A DNA stretch of 35,757 bases from Alphaproteobacteria bacterium UBA4588. Its GTDB lineage: Bacteria > Pseudomonadota > Alphaproteobacteria > Puniceispirillales > Puniceispirillaceae. The stretch's first letter is position 1; each line of letters opens with the position of its first letter. A program made the translations under genes and the position numbers. A model generated the notes under the pieces. It was given only the letters and a program-made list of their open reading frames with translations. It was not told the DNA's origin and made no database searches. Location of the stretch: NCBI GenBank assembly GCA_949529445.1, contig CATISA010000029.1:1-35757 (forward strand), written 5' to 3'. Positions 28,204-30,384 of the stretch are shown in pieces.

Positions 28204-28239
28204 AAAAAAGGGTCTGCCTAGATTGCCCCAAGCAGACCC
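28204..28239 (-). terminator. Rho-independent terminator after pal
   Basis: On the minus strand GGGTCTGC (complement of 28232-28239) pairs perfectly with GCAGACCC (complement of 28210-28217), followed directly by six T (complement of 28204-28209). The eight-pair, GC-rich stem and immediate T-run make this the clearest intrinsic terminator in the window. It lies about 50 bases after the pal stop and should end the tol-pal transcript. Confidence 0.88.
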
Positions 28240-28286: not shown

Positions 28287-28796
28287 CTAGTTAAGGGCAG
28301 TTACAGCGCGTCTGTTCTTTGACCAAGCCGATTCGTTTGAACCAACAGCCATTGGACGCTCTTTACCGTAAGAGATTATCCGAATACGCGCGGAGTTCAC
28401 ACCTTTTGCAACCAAATAGTCGCGGGTCGCCGCAGCGCGACGTTCACCAAGCGCTAGGTTATATTCACGTGTACCGCGTTCATCGGCGTGCCCACCAATA
28501 AGAACGCGAAGAGTTGGTGACGCCTGCAAGAAAGCGGCTTGTCTATTCAGCGTTGCCTGAGCACTGTCTGTTAACGAAGCACTGTCAAAACCAAAAAGCA
28601 CCGTATCGCCCACTGATGCTAGCTGATTTTCGGCTGTTAGACCAGCCGAGCCAGTCTCAGAGCTTGCAGAAGCTTGAGCTTGAGCTTGCGATGAAGTTGC
28701 AGCCGAGCTTGTTGCATCACCAGAGGTAGTTGAAGCTGTTTCGCAAGCAGCGAAAAGGGCAGATGCTGCAAGGAGCGGTAAAAAGCGTTTAATCAT
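28287..28796 (-). CDS. pal: Peptidoglycan-associated lipoprotein Pal
   Basis: Pal is an outer-membrane lipoprotein that binds peptidoglycan and TolA/TolB, holding the envelope together at division. The 169 residues start with a lipoprotein signal with lipid cysteine at 18 (LFAAC). A low-complexity Ala/Ser/Thr/Gln tether (19-50) follows. The OmpA-like domain (about 62-169) carries the peptidoglycan-binding motif GHADERGT (102-109) and NLALGERRA (113-121). GGAGG (complement of 28805-28809) eight bases upstream is a very strong ribosome site, fitting an abundant protein. It is separated from tolB by 199 structured bases. Confidence 0.96.
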   Translation of the reverse strand: MIKRFLPLLAASALFAACETASTTSGDATSSAATSSQAQAQASASSETGSAGLTAENQLASVGDTVLFGFDSASLTDSAQATLNRQAAFLQASPTLRVLIGGHADERGTREYNLALGERRAAATRDYLVAKGVNSARIRIISYGKERPMAVGSNESAWSKNRRAVTALN

Positions 28797-28817
28797 GGAT
28801 TAGACCTCCAATGGCCC

Positions 28818-28835
28818 GTCCCGTCTCAACGGAAC
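28818..28835 (-). promoter_or_regulatory. Hairpin just upstream of the pal ribosome site
   Basis: On the minus strand GTTCCGT and ACGGGAC form a seven-pair stem (one G-T pair) over the tetraloop TGAG. It ends eight bases before the GGAGG of pal. It could stabilise the 5' end of a pal transcript or modulate ribosome access. Confidence 0.4.
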
Positions 28836-28838
28836 ATC

Positions 28839-28912
28839 AAAAAAAATGTATGCCGGCTAGAATTCGGACCTTATAAACAACGGATAAAGTAACCCAAACA
28901 CACCTAGCCGGC
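28839..28912 (-). terminator. Structured attenuator-like element between tolB and pal
   Basis: On the minus strand GCCGGCTAG (complement of 28904-28912) pairs perfectly with CTAGCCGGC (complement of 28852-28860). The 43-base interval contains a second stem, ACTTTAT/ATAAGGT, seven pairs with one G-T. Five bases after the outer stem comes a run of eight T (complement of 28839-28846). This has the parts of an intrinsic terminator, but with a branched, large-loop stem and a short gap before the T-run. It may therefore reduce rather than abolish read-through into pal. Confidence 0.5.
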
Positions 28913-28995
28913 TCAAAACTTCACTACTCAGAACATATTTGGGCACCAAAATCAACCTATATCTGCATCTAATAAGCCAATTTTATTAGTCATGT

Positions 28996-30384
28996 TTATT
29001 GAAGCAGCGGTGACCATGCCGGGTCACTTGCATCAGCAGGTGTATTAACGCGGCGTTCGTTAAATCCGGTTATATCCACGCGATAAAGATATGTTTGGCC
29101 GCCTTGACCATCATTTGAGACAGGTTCCTGCTTAAAATACATCAATACTCGCCCATTTGGTGCCCATGTCGGAGCCTCGACCAAGAAGCCACGCGCCAGA
29201 AGCCTCTCGCCACTGCCATCAACATTCATCACGCCAATAAAAAATTCGTTTTTAAACATCTTGGTAAAGGCAATGATATCGCCACGTGGAGACCAGACAG
29301 GCGTTGCATAACGCCCCTGACCAAAGCTAATACGCTTCACATTTTTGCCAGTAGCATCCATTATGTAGAGTTGCTGTGACCCGCCTCTATCAGAATTAAA
29401 GACAATTTTGCTGCCATCTGGCGCAAAGGAGGGTGATGTATCTATTGATGCAGAACGAGTTAATTGGCTCAAAGATTGCGTCCGCAAATCCATCTGGAAA
29501 ATATCCGTCCGACCATCTTGAGCGAGTGACATGATAAGCTTGTTACCATCTGGATCAAAACGAGGGGCAAATGTCATACCAGGAAAACTACCAAGCCGCT
29601 CTGTTCTGCCAGACGCAATATCCAGCAGATAAACATTTGGCTCATCGTTGAAATAGTTGAGATAAGCTACTTCATGCGCAGTTGGTGAAAAACGTGGCGT
29701 CAGCACTAAATCAAGCCCCGACGTTAGAAATTTATGGTTAAACCCATCTTGGTCCATAATTGCGAGCCGTTTTACCCGGCGGTCACGCGGCCCTGATTCA
29801 GAGACATACACAATCTGAGTATCAAAATAAGGGCTATCACCAGTAAATTCTTGATATACAAAATCAGCGATCTGATGGGCAATTCGGCGGATACCTGACT
29901 GGTTTGCCGACCCACCACCTTCGGTAATATTCCGCTGCGATACAATGTCCCACAAAACAAATTCGATTTGCAACAGTCCATCTGCATCTAAAAACGCTGA
30001 ACCAACAAGAAGTCCTTTTGCGCCCAGTGGAGTCCAGTTTGAAAAGTCAGGGCGAATAGAGGGCGATTCAGGTGGCTTAATAAAGGCAGCGCTATCAACC
30101 GCACTAAACAACCCTGAACTCACCAAATCATCCGAGATGATCTGTGATATCTGCCTGCCGACCTCTGATGGCAGGCCGTCCGGTCCTGTAAATTCAGCAA
30201 TTGCAACAGGAATAGGTGCTACCTGACCTTCGGTAATATCTAACCGTTGTGTCTGCGCACCTGCTGTGCCGACACTGAACACAAACAGCATTAAAGCACA
30301 TAGTAATAGTAGCAGAGACCGCCACAAAGCGGTTCCAGAGACGGTGTTTACAGGCGCACTTAAAATCATTATGTCCATTTTCAT
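28996..30384 (-). CDS. tolB: Tol-Pal system protein TolB
   Basis: TolB is a periplasmic protein with an N-terminal domain and a six-bladed beta-propeller that binds Pal and TolA. The 462 residues begin with a signal peptide (core about 22-37, GTAGA-QT). The TolB N domain follows (ITEGQVAPIPVAIAEF onward), then the propeller repeats: FSPTAHEVAYLNY, FDPDGNKLIMSLAQDG, FAPDGSKIVFNSDRGG, WSPRGDIIAFTKM and WAPNGRVLMYFKQ. ATG 30384 is the longest reading; ATGs at 30378 and 30369 are possible and none has a strong ribosome site. It follows tolA by 67 bases. Confidence 0.95.
   Translation of the reverse strand: MKMDIMILSAPVNTVSGTALWRSLLLLLCALMLFVFSVGTAGAQTQRLDITEGQVAPIPVAIAEFTGPDGLPSEVGRQISQIISDDLVSSGLFSAVDSAAFIKPPESPSIRPDFSNWTPLGAKGLLVGSAFLDADGLLQIEFVLWDIVSQRNITEGGGSANQSGIRRIAHQIADFVYQEFTGDSPYFDTQIVYVSESGPRDRRVKRLAIMDQDGFNHKFLTSGLDLVLTPRFSPTAHEVAYLNYFNDEPNVYLLDIASGRTERLGSFPGMTFAPRFDPDGNKLIMSLAQDGRTDIFQMDLRTQSLSQLTRSASIDTSPSFAPDGSKIVFNSDRGGSQQLYIMDATGKNVKRISFGQGRYATPVWSPRGDIIAFTKMFKNEFFIGVMNVDGSGERLLARGFLVEAPTWAPNGRVLMYFKQEPVSNDGQGGQTYLYRVDITGFNERRVNTPADASDPAWSPLLQ

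Follow-up and report, generated by a model that had tools for sequence, protein, structure and literature searches.

A long hairpin followed by a run of T residues lies between tolB and pal in Alphaproteobacteria bacterium UBA4588, and raises the question of whether it terminates transcription after tolB or forms part of the pal message itself. The window, i.e. the whole 35,757-nt stretch of DNA that was analysed, carries both genes on the minus strand: tolB at 28996..30384 (an open reading frame with Pfam TolB_N and PD40 domains) and pal at 28287..28796 (an open reading frame encoding 169 aa with an OmpA-family Pfam domain), separated by 199 nt here versus 200 nt in the only same-genus relative. 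Families of related genomes are labelled f1 to f4 and genera g1 to g9, with the host placed in f1 and g1, and g2 being the next genus.

Fold and conservation of the long hairpin

The perfect nine-base inverted repeat described in an earlier note on this DNA (GCCGGCTAG/CTAGCCGGC) is indeed found at 28912-28904 and 28860-28852 on the minus strand, as are the inner seven-pair stem (ACUUUAU/AUAAGGU), the eight T residues (28846-28839) located five bases (ATACA) past the stem, the GGAGG sequence at 28809-28805 and a further hairpin at 28818-28835. The note had described the structure as branched, whereas folding predicts a single interrupted hairpin at 28852..28912 (minus strand), closed by the nine-base repeat and consisting of 23 pairs (10 + 6 + 7, with two 3-nt bulges), including a middle helix (GUUUGG/CCGAAU) which the note had missed. 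The predicted energy is -26.5 kcal/mol in the local fold and -25.0 kcal/mol for the exact 61 nt.

The bare repeat is unremarkable, with eight perfect nine-base inverted repeats of such span in the window versus 11.3 in shuffled sequences, but only one of these has T6 within 14 nt downstream (0.2 per window in shuffles, with at least one in 7/40). Similarly, the fold of the whole 199-nt gap has a z-score of -1.6 (13/200 shuffles equally good), whereas the local fold of the long hairpin reached z -3.7 (0/200 shuffles as good) and z -4.1 (2/1000), and none of 120 shuffles placed so strong a hairpin 6 nt or less from the T run. A mobile or repeated element was rejected, as the exact arms occur only once in the 1.93-Mb draft genome and the 199-nt gap matches only itself and two stretches of 16 and 19 bases; a known RNA family was rejected as well, with Rfam giving no match for the window at gathering scores or for nine loci at E-values up to 1. 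A promoter within the hairpin (TTTGGG-N17-TATAAG, picked by eye) was discarded, being absent from the same-genus relative and not listed by the consensus scan.

Compared with the same-genus relative, identity is 74% between tolB and the -35 element, 88% (30/34 bases) at 28957-28924, 82% from there to 28913, only 31% (19/61) in the hairpin, 54% in the spacer and U8 tract, and 77% from there to pal, while the third codon positions in the last 600 nt of tolB are 70% identical. The corresponding segment of the relative folds at -10.6 (z -0.2); it contains a U9 tract 47 nt from pal (U8 at 42 nt in the host), preceded at one base by a weaker hairpin which is matched in 8-14% of shuffles, and what similarity is left lies in the 3' half and is weak (p 0.05 in global and 0.14 in local comparison). 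Inversion of the segment was rejected, since the reverse complement of the hairpin is unlike the segment of the relative (local p 0.80, global p 0.45). The earlier note had suggested a search for covariation, and this gave no supported compensatory changes, as the single relative from the genus has arms that are for the most part unrelated. Any of four genus-specific promoter patterns, which were composed after viewing the sequences, is contained in 26 of the 68 gaps (the other 42 contain none); when the first 85 nt of these 26 leaders were folded, only that of the host fell below z -2 (-3.3, the next being -1.6), with no comparable fold in the other 25. On present data, the long hairpin appears to be species-specific among the relatives examined.

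Promoter-like block and predicted transcript ends

A promoter-like element for pal is located upstream of the long hairpin at 28927..28955 (minus strand), and consists of a -35 TTGATT (28955-28950), a 17-nt spacer and a -10 TCTGAG (28932-28927) preceded by TG-N. It matches the σ70 consensus at 7/12 positions plus the TG extension, and is not listed by the consensus scan; alphaproteobacterial -10 elements mostly lack the final T, as stated in PMC8407463. The combination TTGATT-N17-TCTGAG with the upstream TG is present in 8/8 loci examined of g1 and g2, a count which does not cover two further g2 genomes (G003, a partial match that was not fetched, and G004, without a match at the threshold). 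A TTG-N17-TA pair follows tolB in 9/9 loci of f2 and f3, ending 47-58 nt before pal (0.26 expected from mononucleotide shuffles), with the qualification that this pattern was composed after viewing f3 and that the nine loci come from 15 stretches (L154, L155, L158, L159, L160 and L164 are without tolB in the stretch). The f2 and f3 pal leaders are much shorter than that of the host, and the pair was found in 0/12 f4 loci.

According to passages of PMC9275681, tolB belongs to a tolQRAB unit and pal-cpoB is separate in a number of alphaproteobacteria, Rb. sphaeroides and C. crescentus among them, and the arrangement here is similar in that pal is apparently transcribed apart from tolQRAB. It differs from the published pal-cpoB unit in that a canonical terminator-like hairpin (28204..28239, minus strand; stem 28239-28210, then T6) separates pal from cpoB. 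Control of pal by CenR was rejected, as the same passages of PMC9275681 report none at pal. The main text of the Caulobacter transcription start site paper (PMC4287350) has no mention of pal, and the titles and abstract openings searched contained nothing on termination between tolB and pal, on a hairpin in the pal leader or on the ends of SAR116 transcripts. From the sequence, the pal message is predicted to start just downstream of tolB, at about 28919-28922; this would give a leader of about 123-126 nt, in which the long hairpin would span roughly positions +8 to +71. Given the promoter-like element upstream and the published separate pal unit, the long hairpin most likely sits in the 5' leader of pal itself.

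In intrinsic terminators the U-tract starts 0-2 nt after the stem. The long hairpin shares with these a stable stem with a GC-rich base and the U8 run (28839..28846, minus strand), but differs in the 5-nt spacer between stem and U-run, the long and interrupted stem, and the low score. On a d'Aubenton-Carafa type score, it reaches -57 (tail 1.14) and the counterpart in the same-genus relative -37, versus +27, or +35 in a finer scan, for the hairpin after pal; the consensus terminator scan did not list the long hairpin either, and of the hairpins lying no more than 2 nt from U8 the strongest has -8.8, which 43% of shuffles match. We scanned 29 of 30 loci (L100 was left out, being too short downstream of pal), and in 25/29, including the host, the score downstream of pal is positive; the exceptions are L096 (-0.3), L097 (-0.7), L098 (-6.4) and L118 (-44). 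Conversely, no hairpin 0-2 nt before a T run scores above zero in 28/29 of the tolB-pal gaps, again including the host, and the single one above zero (L097, +1.0) is located at the promoter block. Canonical terminators with adjacent T runs thus exist in this lineage, and the tolB-pal hairpin is unlike one; moreover, with the apparent pal promoter upstream, termination at this hairpin would cut the pal transcript as well. The terminator reading is therefore weak, and with the U-tract five bases off the stem, the low score and the promoter upstream, the proposal in the earlier note of a partial terminator setting the Pal:TolB ratio found no support. As terminator-like hairpins follow pal in 25/29 loci, pal may be a single-gene transcription unit here, unlike the published pal-cpoB.

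A short hairpin upstream of the Shine-Dalgarno sequence

The 42 nt between U8 and pal are filled by the further hairpin mentioned above, a short one (28817..28836, minus strand), located 20 nt before the pal ATG, and by the Shine-Dalgarno sequence GGAGG (28805..28809, minus strand), located 8 nt before it. The suggestion in the earlier note of a pal-specific leader with a hairpin near the ribosome binding site was supported, as the short hairpin recurs in place in two families. Relatives have different stems at about the same place (GUUCCGG/CCGGAAC, ACCGG/CUGGU, CAGACCU/AGGUUUG, CCGGGUC/GACCCGG, AUCCGU/GCGGAU and AACCGU/ACGGUU), and reading down this list the stems appear to covary. The sequence GGCC-ATTGGA-GGTC at 28816-28803 (minus strand) can also pair around the pal Shine-Dalgarno sequence, and g2 loci have GACC or GGCC opposite GGTC in the same layout, so that a small hairpin at the ribosome binding site is possible.

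Recurrence was assessed by the summed hairpin energy 15-27 nt before the ATG, using position-specific shuffling and a control zone; a MAFFT alignment of 58 leader ends left the variable loops out of register, and position-specific shuffling was thus used in place of an alignment-based pair count. Matches were obtained in 92/136 genomes of the order. Within f1, 48/49 loci gave a gap (L122 gave none), of which 47 were used after removal of L110 (uncertain start), while 27 loci were examined outside f1; L104 was dropped as a duplicate leader end. The Acetobacteraceae-like set consists of 58/80 named loci with a CAGG-type site before the ATG and a gap of over 100 nt; going by their record titles, some of these loci do not belong to the Acetobacteraceae. 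The z-score was -8.7 for f1 (30 representatives of 47; control zone -0.3), -8.6 for f4 (10 of 12; control zone 0.2), -0.6 for f2 and f3 (6 of 9) and -3.9 for the Acetobacteraceae-like loci (21 of 58; control zone -1.2). A hairpin of -4 kcal/mol or better is found in 14/30, 7/10, 1/6 and 9/21 of these representatives, respectively, hence many members do not have such a short hairpin, examples being the AT-rich f1 loci L120, L129, L130, L132 and L134. A separate observation is that a distance of about 1.9 kb separates tolB from pal in five Gluconobacter loci (L048, L051, L052, L059 and L060), versus 0.5-0.65 kb in eight other Gluconobacter loci, and something may have been inserted between the two genes in these five.

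We tentatively suggest, with confidence well short of even, that the pal messages in this order, and possibly in the Acetobacteraceae as well, share a cis-element not described before, namely a short hairpin which keeps its place about 20-26 nt ahead of the start codon although its stem sequence changes. It would set Pal output post-transcriptionally, and in the host the same leader would also have gained another strong hairpin on the 5' side and the U8 tract.

Possible roles of the proposed two-hairpin leader

The reading we prefer, and to which we give about an even chance, is that the long hairpin and U8 are contained in the 5' leader of a pal message which starts from its own promoter immediately past tolB and runs to the canonical terminator behind pal, and that their role is most likely post-transcriptional. 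This leader would consist of about 7-10 unpaired bases, the long hairpin (28912-28852), a single-stranded AUACA-U8 stretch, the short hairpin (28836-28817) and the Shine-Dalgarno sequence. The E. coli ompA 5' leader contains two hairpins, single-stranded stretches and a ribosome binding site. The pal leader resembles it in having a 5'-proximal stem-loop, a single-stranded U-rich stretch, a second hairpin and a ribosome binding site in front of an envelope protein gene, although the likeness is one of layout only, with no sequence relation claimed. By analogy with ompA, the 5'-proximal stem-loop would hinder 5'-end-dependent decay of the pal mRNA and the short hairpin would keep the ribosome binding site accessible, with the message ending at the terminator after pal. 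In contrast to the ompA leader, there are 7-10 predicted unpaired bases at the 5' end, i.e. between the predicted pal start and the long hairpin, and the long hairpin is not conserved; the stabilising effect on pal is putative, and the long hairpin may have little effect. The anatomy of the leader is fairly well supported, and we infer its function, as we do the pal start site, the separate transcription unit and the stabilising role.

The low conservation of the long hairpin is what would be expected if the segment from promoter to short hairpin drifts freely and its stable fold arose by happenstance, with no selected role: the hairpin has 31% identity versus 70% for the tolB third positions, both flanks are better conserved, and the relatives have no counterpart. 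As such a fold is improbable by shuffling (0/120 and 2/1000) and the gap length is kept (199 versus 200 nt), we consider neutral drift rather unlikely. Partial termination by the long hairpin and U8 of all passing transcription, whether initiated at the pal promoter or reading through from tolB, would agree with the strength of the hairpin near the U8 run, and also with the weaker hairpin one base before U9 at a similar place in the same-genus relative, with its weak 3'-half similarity. Yet that hairpin is matched in 8-14% of shuffles, the host has the five-base spacer, the scores (-57, and -37 in the relative) are far from the +27 to +35 after pal, and 28/29 tolB-pal gaps are without an above-zero hairpin 0-2 nt before a T run, which leaves such an attenuator unlikely.

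A small RNA running from the pal promoter to U8, with a length of about 80 nt, would fit the geometry of a predicted start, one hairpin and a U8 end, but there is no Rfam match, sequence conservation is poor even within the genus and the terminator geometry is weak, and we regard it as very unlikely. Least plausible of all, to the point of being hardly tenable, is the model of the earlier note in which a tolB-side terminator is followed by a separate pal promoter, giving an excess of Pal: hairpin, U-tract and leader all exist, but the U-tract is only 42 nt from pal, that space is occupied by the short hairpin and Shine-Dalgarno sequence, and the conserved promoter-like block lies upstream of the hairpin.

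For a marine bacterium to have a strong hairpin between genes for two cell-envelope proteins is in itself rather ordinary, but this locus illustrates that an intergenic hairpin with a T run need not be a terminator if the promoter of the downstream gene lies upstream of it, and the short recurring hairpin in the pal leader is a candidate for control of the Pal level independently of tolQRAB.
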